Positions 1-5,589 of a stretch of 5,589 bases of DNA are shown here, one piece after another. The notes beneath the pieces were generated by a model. It worked only from the letters and a program-made list of their open reading frames with translations, ran no database searches and had not been told where the DNA came from. Origin of the DNA: an uncultured Actinomyces sp. GTDB lineage: Bacteria > Actinomycetota > Actinomycetes > Actinomycetales > Actinomycetaceae. Position 1 is the first letter of the stretch. Every line of letters starts with the position of its first letter. The position numbers were made by a program, and so were the translations under genes. The stretch spans positions 1 through 5,589 of the forward strand of contig CAMFDH010000101.1 of assembly GCA_945949035.1 (NCBI GenBank), given 5' to 3'.

Positions 1-1
1 C

Positions 2-532
2 TTTTCAGCGGTCGCGGGGAATCAGAGTGAGCAGCAGCGAGCGGTTGAAGAGGCGATGAGGGCGTCTGGAATCGAGCCGGGGGACCCGGTAGAGCTGGTG
101 GGCCACTCCCAGGGTGGGGCCATCGCCCTCAAGGTTGCAGGTGACCCCCAAGTTAAGGACCAGTTCAACATTGTCTCGGTTCTCACCGCCGGGGCTCCGA
201 CTGCCCGACTCGGAGGAGGGGTCGAGGCCTCAGTCCTCAACCTGGAGAACATCCATGACCTTGTGCCAGCGCTCGACGGCATGGCAGCTGACAGAACCCC
301 TTCGACGACAACGGTTCTCTTCGATTCCTCATCACTTACGCTCCCGGTGGGTAAACACGCGCACGACCTCGGAACCTACGTGGCTGCCGCAGCTCAGATG
401 GAAAGTGAGGTCGGTATCGATCCCATGGTGGATCCGGTGGGGACCTGGGAGGAGCAGCGAAGATCCGCCCTGGGTCTCGGTGTGGATACCAGGACGGAAA
501 CGCTTTACTTCCAGACCACGCGTGTTCGGTGA
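2..532 (+). CDS. Alpha/beta hydrolase, lipase-like (5'-truncated by window edge)
   Basis: This is a partial gene: the reading frame is open from base 2 to the TGA at 530-532, giving 176 visible residues, so the true start lies left of the window. The ATG at 56 is in frame but would leave too little of the fold before the nucleophile. Seen: the nucleophile elbow GHSQGG (visible residues 35-39, Ser36), a following 'SVLTAGAPTA' strand, 'LENIHDLVPALDG' with the likely catalytic Asp86, and 'GKHAHDLGTYV' with His119 or His121 as the likely catalytic base. The order Ser-Asp-His and the 'N/H-D-x-V-P' wording are typical of class 3 lipases and related serine esterases. The substrate cannot be told. 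The signal peptide or N-terminal domain, if any, is outside the window. It could form a short transcription unit with the membrane protein 46 bp downstream, but nothing shows this directly. Confidence 0.8.
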   Translation, partial: FSAVAGNQSEQQRAVEEAMRASGIEPGDPVELVGHSQGGAIALKVAGDPQVKDQFNIVSVLTAGAPTARLGGGVEASVLNLENIHDLVPALDGMAADRTPSTTTVLFDSSSLTLPVGKHAHDLGTYVAAAAQMESEVGIDPMVDPVGTWEEQRRSALGLGVDTRTETLYFQTTRVR

Positions 533-565
533 GAAGTACCTCTAGCTGCGCTTTCTTCACGCGTG
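517..565. repeat. Two copies of the 8-bp palindrome CACGCGTG
   Basis: The perfect palindrome CACGCGTG occurs at 517-524, inside the last codons of the hydrolase gene, and again at 558-565, just before and touching the Shine-Dalgarno site of the next gene. The start-to-start distance is 41 bp, about four helical turns. This could be a pair of operator half-sites for the downstream membrane-protein gene, or chance in GC-rich DNA. No matching regulator is visible. Confidence 0.3.
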
Positions 566-570
566 GGAGA
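565..570 (+). promoter_or_regulatory. Ribosome binding site for the 579 start
   Basis: GGGAGA lies 8 nt upstream of the ATG at 579. This spacing supports 579 as the start of the small membrane protein. Confidence 0.6.
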
Positions 571-578
571 CTGTCCCC

Positions 579-971
579 ATGCGATTTTTGATCAAGACTC
601 TCGGCAACATGGTCGGCATCTGGGTGGCGGCCTCAATCATTCCGGCTGTTACCTTCCGACAGAATGAGGACTGGCGCTACACGGTTGCCTACCTGTTTGT
701 GATCGCCCTGATCCTGACCCTGGCAAACCAGCTGGTTCGCCCCATCATCAAGTTCGTTTCGATACCTCTGTACATCCTGACCCTGGGCCTCTTCAGTCTG
801 GTGATAAATGGCCTGATGTTCTTCCTGGTTGGTTGGCTCTCCGGCCTCGTCAATGTTCCCCTGGTCGTTGACGGTTGGTTCGGGGCCATCTTCGGCGGAA
901 CTGTCACAGCAATCATTTCTTGGATCGTCGCGGGCATCGTCGGGGTAGTGTTCCCGAACCAAAGCGAGTAA
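579..971 (+). CDS. Phage holin family / YvlD-like small membrane protein (PF04020)
   Basis: This is a 130-residue integral membrane protein with about four hydrophobic helices: roughly residues 5-24, 34-50, 60-85 and 100-125. The central block 'NQLVRPIIKFVSIPLYILTL' (50-69), followed by GLFSLVING, is the hallmark of the Mycobacteriophage-holin-4-like / YvlD family. In that family an N-x-[IVL]-x-P-[IV] helix start and a 'P-x-x-[IL]-L-T-x-G-x-F' helix recur. The length matches the usual 110-130 residues. Members are widespread chromosomal envelope proteins of unknown biochemical function, and the 'holin' label comes from sequence similarity only. No lysin, phage structural gene or integrase lies nearby, so this is not evidence of a prophage. 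The start is fixed by GGGAGA 8 nt upstream. The gene stands 46 bp after the hydrolase and 101 bp before rocD. Confidence 0.85.
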   Translation: MRFLIKTLGNMVGIWVAASIIPAVTFRQNEDWRYTVAYLFVIALILTLANQLVRPIIKFVSIPLYILTLGLFSLVINGLMFFLVGWLSGLVNVPLVVDGWFGAIFGGTVTAIISWIVAGIVGVVFPNQSE

Positions 972-1057
972 AGCTGCGCCTCCGCCCCCGTACTGCGGTA
1001 GTTTCTGAAGTGAGATGAAGGACCGCGGATGCAGGTGACCCCTGCGCAAAACTCAAT

Positions 1058-1064
1058 GGGGAGG
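1058..1064 (+). promoter_or_regulatory. Strong ribosome binding site of rocD
   Basis: GGGGAGG is placed 8 nt before the ATG at 1073. It is a near-ideal Shine-Dalgarno match and fixes the rocD start. Confidence 0.7.
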
Positions 1065-1072
1065 CGAAGATC

Positions 1073-2320
1073 ATGGACCGGACTACCTATCAGCCGGGTG
1101 AAGCGACAAGGCGTGCGATTGAGGCCGAAGCGGGTGTCGTCGTAGGGAACTACCACCCACTGCCCGTCGTACTCGAAAAGGGGAAGGGGGCGTGGGTCAC
1201 CGACGTTGATGGCCGAGAGTTCCTGGACGCACTATCGGGCTACTCAGCCGTGAACTTCGGTCACTCGAACCCGCAGATCATTCAGGCCATGACTGACCAG
1301 GCAATCCAGCTGGGCCTCATCGCCCGCGCCTTCCACAGTGCCAATCTGGGGCCCTTCTGCGCAGCCCTTGCCGAACTGACTGGAATGGACATGGTCCTTC
1401 CGATGAACACCGGCGCCGAGGCGGTGGAAACCACGATCAAGGCGGCGCGTAAGTGGGGGTACCTCGTCAAGGGTGTCGAGCGGGATCGCGCGGAGATCAT
1501 CGTCATGGACGACAACTTCCACGGTCGTACCTCAACGATCGTGTCATTCTCTTCAGATCCCGACGCACGCGATGACTTCGGCCCCTACACCCCCGGATTC
1601 ATCTCGGTTCCATTCGGGGATGCTGAGGCCGTTCGCCGTGCCATCACGAAGAATACGGTTGCCGTCCTCACCGAACCGATCCAGGGTGAGGCCGGAGTGG
1701 TGATTCCACCCGCCAGCTTCCTTCCAGAACTGCGTCAGATCTGCGATGACAACAATGTTCTGCTCATTGTTGATGAGATCCAGTCTGGATTCGGTCGCAC
1801 CGGAGCCACCTTCGCCTGCGAGTTGGTTGGGGTACAGCCGGATCTTTACACCCTCGGCAAGGCGCTGGGTGGCGGGGTGTATCCGGTCTCAGCTGTCGCC
1901 GGCAAACGAGAGGTCCTGGAGGTGTTTACCGCTGGGACCCACGGGTCGACCTTCGGTGGCAACCCGCTTGCGGCTGCCATCGGCCTCGAGGTCATCTCCA
2001 TGATCAGGACGGGCGAGTACCAGCAGAACGCGGCTGAACGTGGCCGACAGTTGCGGGACCACCTGGTTGAACTGCACAAACAGTTCCCGGAACTTCTTCT
2101 GGGGTTCCGACAGATCGGCCTGTGGGTCGGTGTCGACTTCAACCCCGACCTCGTCACCGGCAGACAGGTCTGTGAGCAGATGATGAGTAACCGCGTCCTC
2201 ATCAAAGATGCGCACGGTTCCGTGGTCAGGATCAGCCCACCCCTCTGTGTGACGGAAGCCGACATAGACTTCCTGTGTATCGCGCTGAGCAAGACTCTGG
2301 AGCAGCTGCGGGCTGGTTAG
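1073..2320 (+). CDS. rocD: Ornithine aminotransferase (ornithine--oxo-acid transaminase)
   Basis: This is a complete 415-residue PLP-dependent class III (fold type I) aminotransferase. It would move the delta-amino group of L-ornithine to 2-oxoglutarate, giving glutamate-5-semialdehyde/pyrroline-5-carboxylate and glutamate in the cytoplasm (arginine/ornithine catabolism or proline supply). Seen: 'NYHPLPVVLEKGKG' (26-39), 'SGYSAVNFGHSNP' (55-67), 'MNTGAEAVE' (111-119), 'NFHGRT' (148-153), 'EPIQGEAGVV' (201-210), 'DEIQSGFGRTG' (234-244), 'LGKALGGGVYPVSAV' (261-275) and 'HGSTFGGNPLA' (290-300). Lys263 is the expected Schiff-base lysine and Asp234 the residue contacting the PLP ring nitrogen. By alignment to human OAT, Tyr27, Arg152 and Glu206 match Tyr55, Arg180 and Glu235, which give ornithine specificity and the 'glutamate switch'. 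This separates it from acetylornithine and GABA aminotransferases. No arginase, RocF-like or permease gene is adjacent. I saw no clear ArgR-type box upstream (972-1072). Confidence 0.95.
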   Translation: MDRTTYQPGEATRRAIEAEAGVVVGNYHPLPVVLEKGKGAWVTDVDGREFLDALSGYSAVNFGHSNPQIIQAMTDQAIQLGLIARAFHSANLGPFCAALAELTGMDMVLPMNTGAEAVETTIKAARKWGYLVKGVERDRAEIIVMDDNFHGRTSTIVSFSSDPDARDDFGPYTPGFISVPFGDAEAVRRAITKNTVAVLTEPIQGEAGVVIPPASFLPELRQICDDNNVLLIVDEIQSGFGRTGATFACELVGVQPDLYTLGKALGGGVYPVSAVAGKREVLEVFTAGTHGSTFGGNPLAAAIGLEVISMIRTGEYQQNAAERGRQLRDHLVELHKQFPELLLGFRQIGLWVGVDFNPDLVTGRQVCEQMMSNRVLIKDAHGSVVRISPPLCVTEADIDFLCIALSKTLEQLRAG

Positions 2321-2339
2321 TCGTGGGTCTGGGATGATG

Positions 2340-2353
2340 GACTAGGTCGTGAC
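2340..2353 (+). repeat. 14-bp direct repeat, left copy (flanks rpiB)
   Basis: GACTAGGTCGTGAC is here, between rocD and rpiB, and is repeated exactly at 2844-2857 across the rpiB stop codon. The two copies are 504 bp apart and bracket rpiB. This could be a remnant of a recombination or duplication event, a paired regulatory site, or chance. Confidence 0.4.
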
Positions 2354-2368
2354 CGCGATGGTTCACGA
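2347..2368 (+). other. Small inverted repeat in the rpiB leader
   Basis: TCGTGA (2347-2352) and TCACGA (2363-2368) are perfect inverted 6-bp arms around a 10-nt loop. They sit about 20 nt before the rpiB start and overlap the left 14-bp repeat. It may form a weak hairpin or an operator in the leader. There is no T-run, so it is not a convincing terminator for rocD. Confidence 0.25.
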
Positions 2369-2376
2369 AGTCACAG

Positions 2377-2382
2377 AGGGAG
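2377..2382 (+). promoter_or_regulatory. Ribosome binding site that decides the rpiB start
   Basis: AGGGAG lies 5 nt upstream of the ATG at 2388. It favours this start over the in-frame GTG at 2349, which would add 13 residues with no counterpart in the family. Confidence 0.65.
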
Positions 2383-2387
2383 AAGTA

Positions 2388-2849
2388 ATGAAAACCGTAC
2401 ATATCGCCGCTGATCACGCAGCCTTTGAACTTCGGGAAGCGCTGCTGGAGCACCTGAAGGACAGCGGGTACGAGGTCGTTGACCACGGCGCGTACGTCTA
2501 CGACGCCCTCGACGCCTACCCCCCGATGTGCATTGCCTGCGGTGAAGCTGTGGTGGCCGATGAAGGTTCGCTGGGGATCGTCCTCGGTGGATCCGGTAAC
2601 GGTGAGCAGATGGCTGCAAACCTGGTTGACGGAGTCCGTGCGGCCCTGGTGTGGAATGAGTCGACTGCCCGCCTGGCTCGCGAGCACAACAACGCGAATG
2701 TCATCGCCCTCGGCGCACGTCAGCACACCATGGAAGAAGCCATGCGACTGGTTGATGCCTTCCTGGAGACCCCGTTCTCAGACGATGAGCGCCACATCGA
2801 GCGCATCGAGATGATGGCGGAGTACGAGGCGGAGCGCTGCAACGACTAG
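2388..2849 (+). CDS. rpiB: Ribose-5-phosphate isomerase B, actinobacterial Glu-type
   Basis: This is a complete 153-residue RpiB/LacAB-family enzyme that interconverts ribulose 5-phosphate and ribose 5-phosphate in the non-oxidative pentose phosphate pathway. Seen: 'IAADHAAFELR' (6-16) with Asp9-His10, 'YDALDAYP' (38-45), 'GIVLGGSGNGEQMAAN' (63-78), 'AREHNNANVIALGAR' (97-111) and C-terminal 'DDERHIERI' (132-140). By position it matches the Mycobacterium tuberculosis enzyme with a shift of two. Glu73 corresponds to its catalytic base Glu75 (the E. coli enzyme uses Cys), and His100 to ring-opening His102. Arg111, Arg135 and Arg139 correspond to the phosphate-binding arginines. All are present, so the enzyme should be active. 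The start is set by AGGGAG at 2377-2382. The gene follows rocD by 67 bp on the same strand and could be co-transcribed, though the pairing has no obvious metabolic logic. It converges with the YwiC-like gene only 7 bp downstream. Confidence 0.95.
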   Translation: MKTVHIAADHAAFELREALLEHLKDSGYEVVDHGAYVYDALDAYPPMCIACGEAVVADEGSLGIVLGGSGNGEQMAANLVDGVRAALVWNESTARLAREHNNANVIALGARQHTMEEAMRLVDAFLETPFSDDERHIERIEMMAEYEAERCND

Positions 2850-2862
2850 GTCGTGACTAGGT
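2844..2862. repeat. 14-bp direct repeat, right copy, within a tandem GACTAGGT pair
   Basis: The right copy of GACTAGGTCGTGAC covers 2844-2857. Its first 8 bp, GACTAGGT, recur 11 bp later (2855-2862). The first TAG (2847-2849) is the rpiB stop. The CTA at 2857-2859 is the stop of the convergent gene read on the other strand. No hairpin followed by a T-run is present, so I see no intrinsic terminator between the two convergent genes. Confidence 0.4.
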
Positions 2863-3732
2863 GAGGGTGGCCGGCAGGATGAGGACGAGGACGACTGCCG
2901 TTGACACCGCAATCTCACTGAAACCAATGACGGCTGGACGAAGCGGCTTCCCGGTTCGGTAGGACCAGGCCGGGAAGGCTGCTGCCCGGATCAGCAGGAG
3001 TGCCCACAGGGCAACGATCCACCAGTTGAGGTGCCCCAGTAGGGCCGCCACAAAGGTGACCACGAGGACGACCCCGTGGAATGTCAGCGAGCCGATCAAC
3101 CAGGCCGAACTACCGCGTTCACGGATAAGGGTCTTCACCAGCGGAACGGTCCCGATGAAGTAGAGGGTGAGGATGGCTGTTGCAAGCCAGACCCTGCCCC
3201 AATCGTCCGGGTGGGATCCCAGTGAGAAGGCGATGGGGGTCAGAAGCTGCGAGGCAATGATGGCTGAAGCTCGCGAGAGCAGCCCTCGTTCGTTGTCATT
3301 CCACATCTCCCATAGGGCGATACCGAAGCAAACCGCGAATGCCGGCGCCCATAGCGCCAAGCTCGGCTTCAGAATAAGCAAGCCGACGGCCCCGACCGCA
3401 GCGACCGCAGCGTAGGTCACCAGGGCATTGCGGAAACGCCCCTGACGCTTCTTGATTGTGGCCAGGCGCGCTTCGCCAAGGGGCTTTCCCGCTGCCCGGG
3501 CCCGAGCACTTGAGTACACCTTGACCCACAGCCCAAGTGCGCTGAAATAGAAGAATGCTGCCAGCCATGCCACCAGCAGAAGCAGCTGCGGCCAGGCCAG
3601 CCCCCCGAGCAAACTGCCAACGATGACGGGCACCAGCATCATGGCCCAAGCCCCGTGTTGGTTCGAAATCCAACCATCTCGAACTAGGCGACGCGCCCGC
3701 TGCTTTGACGGAGATGATACTCGAGTTCCCAT
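2857..3732 (-). CDS. YwiC-like polytopic membrane protein (PF14256-type)
   Basis: This is a 291-residue membrane protein with about nine hydrophobic segments: near residues 30-46, 48-70, 103-121, 124-144, 151-171, 181-200, 209-232, 236-254 and 268-288. The short basic N-terminus (KQRARR at 10-15) is followed by 'NQHGAWAMMLVP' (24-35), the signature opening of the YwiC-like family. Other features are polar 'NDNERG' (145-150) before helix 5, 'GTVPLVKTLIRERG' (194-207) and 'LRPAVIGFSE' (264-273). YwiC is named from Bacillus subtilis, where its role is not known, and no reaction can be assigned here. The frame is open upstream to 3999, but the ATG at 3732 is the likely start. The family signature begins just after it, a GAGA lies 8 nt upstream on the minus strand, and the upstream extension has no recognisable similarity. 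The frame could also start at the ATG ending at 3840, but this lacks a ribosome site. Confidence 0.8.
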   Translation of the reverse strand: MGTRVSSPSKQRARRLVRDGWISNQHGAWAMMLVPVIVGSLLGGLAWPQLLLLVAWLAAFFYFSALGLWVKVYSSARARAAGKPLGEARLATIKKRQGRFRNALVTYAAVAAVGAVGLLILKPSLALWAPAFAVCFGIALWEMWNDNERGLLSRASAIIASQLLTPIAFSLGSHPDDWGRVWLATAILTLYFIGTVPLVKTLIRERGSSAWLIGSLTFHGVVLVVTFVAALLGHLNWWIVALWALLLIRAAAFPAWSYRTGKPLRPAVIGFSEIAVSTAVVLVLILPATLT

Positions 3733-3789
3733 GACCCCATTCTCGCAGGTGAGAAGTGCCGAGGGCCCACACCTAGATCCCAGGCTTCG

Positions 3790-3838: not shown

Positions 3839-3985
3839 ATGAGGAAGTGGGTTGGTTTGCGGCGCGGCCAGTCTTCGTGGCAGGTGCGCTTTGATTCGAC
3901 AGGACTGGAGAGGACCCTTTGGGCCCCTTCGACGATTCGTTGGACAGAGTAAAGTTCGAAGCAGAGTACTTTATGCAGCGAAGCG

Positions 3986-3999: not shown

Positions 4000-5589
4000 A
4001 TGGGTCCGCAGTTCACTTGGGTTCCATTTTATGAGGGGCTCGCAGATGCTTTGGCAAGCTACGCGGATCGTCGGGGTGAACTCCTGGGTGTAATGCAGTC
4101 CTTGTCAGCGAGTCGTCGAGAGTTCTTTGGCTACTTGCATTTCGAGAACAGTGCTCGGTGGGAAGCTCGAGGCAACCAGATTGACCCATTCACCATTCTT
4201 GGTTCCTTCAACCGGGGAATAACCGATGAAAAGCGCAGCACCGTGGCTGGCCTGCTCAAGGAGGCCTTCGACGTTGAAGCCCCCGTCCCGGATGACTTTG
4301 AGGGAATCCCACTGATCGCCAATCTCAACTCCCTGTTTGAAGGCACCGACAAACTCTGGGAACTGTTTGCTGCGGGCAGGGGTTACGCCTCCGGAGAGGT
4401 AAGCAAAGATGACATGGCAGCTTCGCTTGATCGGGTCTTTGCCGTAAAGGGAAATGGAAGGAAGTACCCGACTTTCGGTCTCTTCTGGATTCAACCCCAG
4501 ACATTTCTCCCTTTTGATTCCAATGTCGTGAAGCTTGCCCGTCGAGAATATGGCCTAGATCTTCCCCAGGGGAATGCTTGCTCTGGTTCTAGATATCTAG
4601 ATGCGCTGGAAGAGATCCGGGAAGCTGCGGGGGAGAGCATGTCCTTCCTTGAGATCTCCCGCAATGCGTGGTTATCCAGGGACGATGATTCCTCGATACC
4701 TTCTCGAACCGAGGATCCAGTCGAGATCTCATCTCGAGAGTCTTCGGACCAGCTAGTCGAGGAGAGGAACCTGATTCTGTATGGTCCCCCTGGAACTGGA
4801 AAGACCTATAGTTCGGTCCTCTATGCGGTAGCGATCATTGATGGTGTCTCAATGGAATCTCTCAGAGCCCGAGACTATGGGGAGGTTTTTGCTCGTTTTC
4901 AAGAGCTAGAAGACGATGGCCTAATTGGTTTTACAACCTTCCATCAGTCCTACGGATATGAGGAGTTTATTGAGGGCCTCCGTCCGGTTCTAGACGATGA
5001 GTCGTCTGAATCACCTGAGATCCGTTACGAGATTCATGATGGGATCTTCAAAGCATTCTGTGATCAGAGCGGAGCTCTAACCGCGATTGAGAGCTCTCCG
5101 ACCAACTTGGGCATTAGAGCTAACCCCAGCGTCTGGAAAGTCTCGCTGGAAGGGACCGGAGAAAATGAGACTCGTACAGAATGCATGAAGACCGGTCAAA
5201 TCCGAATTGCTTGGGATGAGTACGGAGAGAAACCGTCTGACCAGACTGGCTACGAATACGGTGGGAGACGAGTTTTAGATGCCTTCTATAACCAGATGCA
5301 GATCGGTGACCTCGTTCTTTCCTGCTACTCCAGCACCACTATCGACGCCATTGGAGTAATCACAGGGGAGCCTGAGTGGCGCCCAAAGTATGACTCGTTC
5401 AAGAGAGTGCGCAAGGTCAACTGGCTGGCTAAGGACCTCAAGCAGGACGTACTAAAGCTCAACGGCGACAAAGTAATGACTCTAGCTACTGTCTACCGCC
5501 TGAGAGTTGCGGTGGCGGATGTGATGGCCTTGTTAAAGGAACACCGCCCAGAGCTTTTCAAACCTGGAACGGCGGATCCGAACCGGGTC
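4000..5589 (+). CDS. McrB-family AAA+ ATPase with inserted EVE-like domain (3'-truncated by window edge)
   Basis: The 530 visible codons run in frame to the last base with no stop, so the 3' part is outside the window. Domains: residues 1-190 are the conserved N-terminal region of many McrB-like ATPases ('FTWVPFYEGLADAL', 'IDPFTILGSFNRGITDEKR' at 61-79, 'FEGIPLI', 'GLFWIQPQTFLPFDS' at 160-174). Residues 191-252 are a serine- and acid-rich linker. Walker A is GPPGTGKT (262-269). McrB-specific 'FTTFHQSYGYEEFIEGLRPVL' lies at 311-331 and 'YEIHDGIFKAFC' at 343-354. An EVE/PUA-like domain occupies about 376-505. Walker B, sensor and arginine-finger parts are not reached, so ATP versus GTP use cannot be judged. 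The expected role is motor/translocase of a modification-dependent type IV restriction system, working with an McrC nuclease that should lie downstream. Codon use is unlike the genes to the left: about nine CTA and six AGA codons plus TTA and ATA, which suggests acquired DNA. The ATG at 3973 is a less likely start. Confidence 0.88.
   Translation, partial: MGPQFTWVPFYEGLADALASYADRRGELLGVMQSLSASRREFFGYLHFENSARWEARGNQIDPFTILGSFNRGITDEKRSTVAGLLKEAFDVEAPVPDDFEGIPLIANLNSLFEGTDKLWELFAAGRGYASGEVSKDDMAASLDRVFAVKGNGRKYPTFGLFWIQPQTFLPFDSNVVKLARREYGLDLPQGNACSGSRYLDALEEIREAAGESMSFLEISRNAWLSRDDDSSIPSRTEDPVEISSRESSDQLVEERNLILYGPPGTGKTYSSVLYAVAIIDGVSMESLRARDYGEVFARFQELEDDGLIGFTTFHQSYGYEEFIEGLRPVLDDESSESPEIRYEIHDGIFKAFCDQSGALTAIESSPTNLGIRANPSVWKVSLEGTGENETRTECMKTGQIRIAWDEYGEKPSDQTGYEYGGRRVLDAFYNQMQIGDLVLSCYSSTTIDAIGVITGEPEWRPKYDSFKRVRKVNWLAKDLKQDVLKLNGDKVMTLATVYRLRVAVADVMALLKEHRPELFKPGTADPNRV
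5125..5514 (+). other. EVE/PUA-like modified-base reader domain inserted in the AAA+ core
   Basis: Residues about 376-505 of the McrB-like protein read as an EVE-type fold. They show 'VWKVSLEGTG' (378-387), 'TGQIRIAWDEYG' (398-409), 'FYNQMQIGDLVLSCYS' (429-444), 'IDAIGVITGEPEW' (448-460) and 'RKVNWL' (471-476). The order matches the usual pattern: W at the start, a '[IV]-x-[IV]-[GA]-W' strand, '[VI]-G-D-x-V', 'G-x-[IV]-T-G' and a 'R-x-V-x-W' strand. Trp379, Trp405, Tyr408, Trp460 and Trp475 are candidates for the aromatic cage. EVE and related YTH domains bind flipped modified bases. Ala404 stands where glycine is usual. The location, after the AAA+ 'DGIFKAFC' motif and before Walker B, makes it an insertion rather than a terminal fusion. 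Confidence 0.7.

Follow-up and report, generated by a model that had tools for sequence, protein, structure and literature searches.

An McrB-type gene of an uncultured Actinomyces with a predicted EVE/YTH-like domain inside its motor

The gene described here bears on how McrBC couples base recognition to its motor. The window, i.e., the whole stretch of DNA analysed, is the entire 5,589-nucleotide contig C101 (CAMFDH010000101.1) from the genome of an uncultured Actinomyces sp. (assembly GCA_945949035.1; 303 contigs, 85% complete), and its end cuts an mcrB-type gene. In our assessment, this gene rather probably encodes an McrB-type motor carrying an internal predicted EVE/YTH reader of about 161 residues, which likely acts in modification-dependent restriction together with the McrC nuclease.

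An extra domain between helix 2 and Walker B

The window protein contains Walker A and the HQS[YF]...EEFI motif, both characteristic of McrB-type AAA+ proteins. Residue numbers refer to the 557-residue frame opened by TTG at 3919; those of an earlier, sequence-only reading are 27 lower, because that count starts at the ATG at 4000, the codon matching Met1 of the relatives (alignment A1). The positions which that reading had given for its motifs, including the markers GPPGTGKT, HQSY/EEFIEGLRP and DGIFKAFC, were correct on re-check, as was its remark that no Walker B appears by its residue 530: the frame stops at ...PNRV, the contig end, before any Walker B. The proposed look at the sequence downstream was made on the relatives. 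In alignment A1 all 14 of them continue directly into the Walker B core FIIDEINRGN, so the gene is interrupted by the contig end and is not a broken one. Beyond Walker B, MNTADR is present in 13 of the 14 (MNSADR in P0034) and RRR also in 13 (P0036 is aberrant there). The notion that the window gene is itself broken or an assembly chimera, which could appeal to the contig terminating inside the gene and to the absence of the 3' half from other contigs of the assembly, is scarcely credible given the full-length relatives with identical part order in several phyla, and for the family it is rejected.

The insertion is far beyond chance, since Walker A and Walker B are separated by 255-297 residues in 75 insert-bearing McrBs vs. 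72-113 in 23 without the insert. The distance from the HQS motif to Walker B, measurable in 73 of 80 related loci (not in the other seven), is 203-221 residues in 72 of them and 56 in L052, whose empty site provided the bounds of the insert. Thus, the claim that a reader-like domain interrupts the AAA+ domain after Walker A and ahead of Walker B is supported by both the spacing and the Walker B of the relatives; its site needs a slight correction. In the model of a full-length relative (P0002), the helix-2 hairpin of McrB described by Niu et al. (2020; PMC7680126) is kept (strands 329-335 and 347-353), and the insert comes only after the latter half of helix 2. It therefore lies past this helix and just ahead of the Walker B strand, to which it is joined by a short linker.

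The gene belongs to a widespread group of insert-bearing McrB motors. A homolog search, which included McrBs in general, retained 7713 of 7997 scored proteins at E ≤ 0.001, the top nine being 48-50% identical over 95-96% of the length. PF28530 occurred in the precomputed Pfam lists of all of the best 120 of the 7713 homologs and in 81 of 82 proteins retrieved with the insert alone; PF28527 was found in all 120 proteins listed, of 683 retrieved with the N-terminal module. Database labels were 'AAA family ATPase', as expected by the sequence-only reading, and also '5-methylcytosine-specific restriction protein B'. The relatives do not show the NxD form of CoCoNuT systems: in 75 of 76 loci the motif after Walker B is MNxxDR, with no match in L055. 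Downstream of the related genes, McrC (PF10117) is encoded in 75 of 76 frames, and 72 of the 76 overlap the mcrB stop or begin at most 40 bases after it; the sole downstream frame without PF10117, in L054, represents the latter part of an mcrB split in two, and a downstream frame is absent from 4 of the 80 loci.

Predicted fold and possible roles of the insert

The earlier description of the insert as EVE-like is supported by its predicted structure and by structure matches, weakly by a profile-profile comparison, and not by Pfam. In the model of the window insert, the order of strands and helices is b-a-b-a-b-b-b-b, as in the EVE/YTH (PUA-like) barrel (PMC7641849), and a structure search with this model yielded matches to solved EVE and YTH domains, several of which are readers of modified bases. 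For the pocket that would accept a flipped modified base, the insert offers aromatic candidate residues.

Several observations weigh against this interpretation. First, the Foldseek TM-scores to EVE/YTH domains are moderate (0.43-0.57 by query length; 50 matches listed). Second, hhalign of the insert against an EVE profile (built from frames of 8 of 24 loci) gave 22% and E 9.5e-4 in one comparison over 22 columns, with a score of 27.9 vs. 10.2-16.9 for controls. Third, Pfam hmmscan found EVE weakly in 2 of 73 inserts (best E 0.17) and gave no match for the window, while the insert profile, run against solved structures, returned no EVE or YTH chain among its three matches, the best being a Type I methylase (E 0.0024). 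Fourth, the full-length P0002 model has a predicted TM-score (pTM) of 0.62, so how the insert sits relative to the motor is uncertain. Finally, the contig ends before any Walker B or McrC gene, and no PF10117 was found in this incomplete genome, a negative of little weight since the control detected the family in only 1 of 14 genomes.

As we infer it, for base reading, base identity and all temporal steps alike, nucleotide would first assemble the ring, as is known for McrB; the internal domain, of which a ring could hold as many as six, would turn a modified base out of the helix and bind it; and the motor with McrC would then cut the DNA. The internal domain would represent a modular specificity unit on a tolerant loop, serving with or instead of the N-terminal module, while the motor could run without it; it likely helps to recognise modified phage DNA. 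Two observations favour a modular reader: L052 and L113 cleanly lack the insert and keep the motor motifs, and the nucleases P0320 and P0321 (of the PADLOC PDC-S02 type), which have no motor, use a related reader. L052 also retains McrC, by elimination (only the L054 frame lacks PF10117). Therefore the motor can apparently do without the insert, and the direct coupling of base reading to motor conformation, suggested by the sequence-only reading, is less likely; the short linker to the Walker B strand would suit it, but the pose is uncertain.

An unlikely, but the best surviving, alternative is that the insert senses or docks McrC, a neighbouring subunit or RNA as a regulator, the choice of DNA being left to the N-terminal module. 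The N-terminal module of the window, a second candidate reader, has a blastp match in 25 of 80 related loci; the EVE superfamily includes RNA-linked members (PMC7641849); and the uncertain pose noted above would leave room for such docking. However, the insert persists while the N-terminal parts vary: the module is without a match in 55 of the 80 loci, and in five (L043, L046, L050, L056 and L077) the McrB frame begins only 8-25 residues before Walker A, so that the internal domain is the sole reader candidate in those proteins. The fusion of a related reader to a nuclease in the motorless PDC-S02-type proteins also speaks against this alternative.

The N-terminal module itself is all-helical in the P0002 model. 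A Foldseek search with the whole model listed the HhH-GPD glycosylases 1pu7, 3knt, 1pu6 and 3fhg (E 0.037-0.084, prob 0.66-0.87, no ranges given). A GNG...D.N motif of the module (P0002 residues 6-232) resembles the HhH-GPD glycosylase motif; its Asp is not invariant (L007, L031). A local hhalign comparison of the module with an HhH-GPD profile (27 frames from 30 loci) gave a probability of 0.1% and scores of 12.8 and 12.0, within the 10.6-13.6 obtained with unrelated profiles, and Pfam found no HhH-GPD match in the module; the profile comparison thus lends the glycosylase reading no support.

Slightly less likely still is a reading in which the junction of helix 2 and Walker B is a natural socket for base readers. 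Each of the six subunits would read bases during the work of the ring, and binding of a base would pull directly on the Walker B strand, turning on hydrolysis or McrC cleavage at modified bases only, with gain and loss of this switch as a cassette. It is suggested by the junction as aligned to the solved McrBs, which has about 1 residue in the E. coli protein, about 61 in that of Thermococcus gammatolerans (TgMcrB) and a predicted EVE/YTH-like domain here. The placement of the reader before the catalytic Walker B strand, along with insert-free kin (L052 with L019, L113 with L115), provides ready pairs for tests of coupling.

A system of the LlaJI kind, which recognises a particular sequence in plain DNA and has a methylase as protection, is improbable here. 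In L034 (5193-9464), HsdM_N and N6_Mtase domains of a Type I methylase precede the same motor with its internal reader in one frame of 1,424 amino acids; if the methylase makes N6-methyladenine (6mA), as its family suggests, a 6mA reader of the general type would harm the host. Proteins flanking the related loci (135 sampled out of 239 selected, at most loci just the closest neighbour to either side) showed no steady family, the commonest being Type I specificity domains (7 of 135), with N6_Mtase in 2 of 135. Such genes are a minor share of the sampled proteins, and the structure matches of the insert to EVE/YTH domains, several of them modified-base readers, also speak against this alternative.

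Distribution and arrival of the gene

Judging by record titles, the insert lineage includes Bacillota, Actinomycetota, Bacteroidota, Synergistota, Desulfovibrionaceae and others. Sampling of 296 genomes from the same phylum as the window gave 25, its own genome included, with an McrB match (threshold E ≤ 1e-12); of the 28 McrB loci of the phylum outside that genome, four (two genes) had the insert spacing, 23 were short and one was unreadable.

A tree of AAA+ cores, with the insert excluded, retained 98 of 106 rows (eight without clear motifs were dropped); it was a quick tree without bootstrap or inferred root, did not include the window, and had L040 as a long branch. On it, the insert label requires three changes, and none of 500 shuffles was as low (mean 21.0). 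Two insert-free loci branch within the insert clade: L052 (5357-7138), which shares 79% identity with the Acetanaerobacterium protein of L019 across 304 motor columns, and L113, the sister of the insert-bearing L115 (73% over 285 columns). One gain and two losses would fit this pattern, though the tree does not tell gain from loss. A separate origin of the L115 insert is not favoured, as it is up to 40% identical to McrB inserts vs. 25-29% to the PDC-S02 readers.

The features of the window gene are collected in Table 1. Besides it, contig C101 encodes a fragment whose match to alpha/beta-hydrolases falls below threshold, a holin-like protein with four transmembrane segments, a class III aminotransferase, an RpiB/LacAB isomerase and, on the minus strand, a YwiC-like protein. 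The mcrB-type gene had no match at E ≤ 1e-30 in 38 other genomes, five of them of the same genus. The genome of a close relative (G003) encodes a YwiC 96% identical to that of the window and matches window positions 1-3788 at 92%; beyond a sharp edge at 3788/3789 it has other frames in place of mcrB. The guanine-cytosine (GC) content is 0.606 before this edge and 0.529 after it. By these comparisons of sequence, the mcrB segment was likely gained by horizontal acquisition upstream of ywiC.

Table 1. Features of the mcrB-type gene in the window
Feature	Position	Strand	Basis
5' part of mcrB-type gene, 530 codons, truncated by contig end	4000..5589	+	open frame; homologs
N-terminal helical module, residues 28-251	4000..4671	+	blastp in related loci; P0002 model
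Walker A GPPGTGKT	4783..4806	+	translation; GTGKT invariant in alignment A3
McrB motif HQSYGYEEFIEGLRP (HQS[YF]...EEFI type)	4942..4986	+	translation; alignment to McrBs
DGIFKAFC, end of helix 2	5038..5061	+	translation; relatives; P0002 model
Inserted domain, residues ~391-551	5089..5571	+	bounds by eye against the L052 empty site
Segment modelled on its own, predicted EVE/YTH-like fold	5110..5583	+	structure prediction
Arg-Val directly before the relatives' Walker B core FIIDEINRGN; contig end	5584..5589	+	alignment
Probably acquired segment	3789..5589	+	G003 comparison; GC shift

Relation to known systems

The phenomenon is not new, because Bell et al. (2024; PMC11090510) report that McrB GTPase domains frequently bear additional segments, 'likely encoding specificity domains', and state that further branches will be treated in a paper of their own. 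Our literature search, which covered few subscription journals and no supplements, found no biochemical study and no description of the site, fold or family of the insert; this agrees with the earlier statement that no biochemical study was known, but insertions in McrB GTPase domains had already been reported (PMC11090510). Bell et al. (2020; PMC7641849) describe EVE-McrB as the commonest architecture among defence-system EVE proteins, occurring in nearly 300 genera. The window protein is similar to these fusions and to the insertion-bearing GTPases in having a specificity domain with or inside McrB; the available parts of the two Bell texts give no site, fold, family or empty sites for the inserted form.

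An EcoSal review places the McrB reader at the N-terminus. In E. coli K-12 McrB (6HZ4, 6UT6), helix 2 runs nearly straight into Walker B, where the insert is found here, and the reader is the N-terminal DUF3578 domain (PMC7680126), whereas the candidate of the window is internal. The McrB of T. gammatolerans (6UT3-6UT8) has an N-terminal YTH reader and a short junction segment (PMC7680126), in contrast to the predicted internal reader here. This segment comprises residues ~287-347 in 6UT5; we found no comment on it in the available published text on the solved McrB. In the solved complexes, McrC occupies the pore; the density of the readers is weak in E. coli, and in T. gammatolerans it lies along the ring's outer rim (PMC7680126). 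Naming an McrB from its N-terminal domain only would overlook a likely reader in the insert lineage.

Two further systems have an EVE-type or related reader and differ in the rest. The EVE-HNH endonuclease VcaM4I (6YEX) consists of an N-terminal reader and an HNH nuclease and has no nucleoside triphosphatase, unlike the motor of the window. The PDC-S02-type proteins P0320 and P0321 carry a related reader (matched by the insert profile at E 2.1e-14 and 4.4e-14 when three sequences were searched) ahead of a NucS-type PD-(D/E)XK nuclease, without a motor; the window protein has only a weak partial match to PDC-S02 (residues 453-544) and no PD-(D/E)XK domain among its Pfam matches. Because P0320 and P0321 carry the related reader and match PDC-S02, the PDC-S02 reader may be EVE-like. 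The kind of architecture is therefore already known, and what is added here is the insertion site, the empty sites and the kinship of the reader with PDC-S02.
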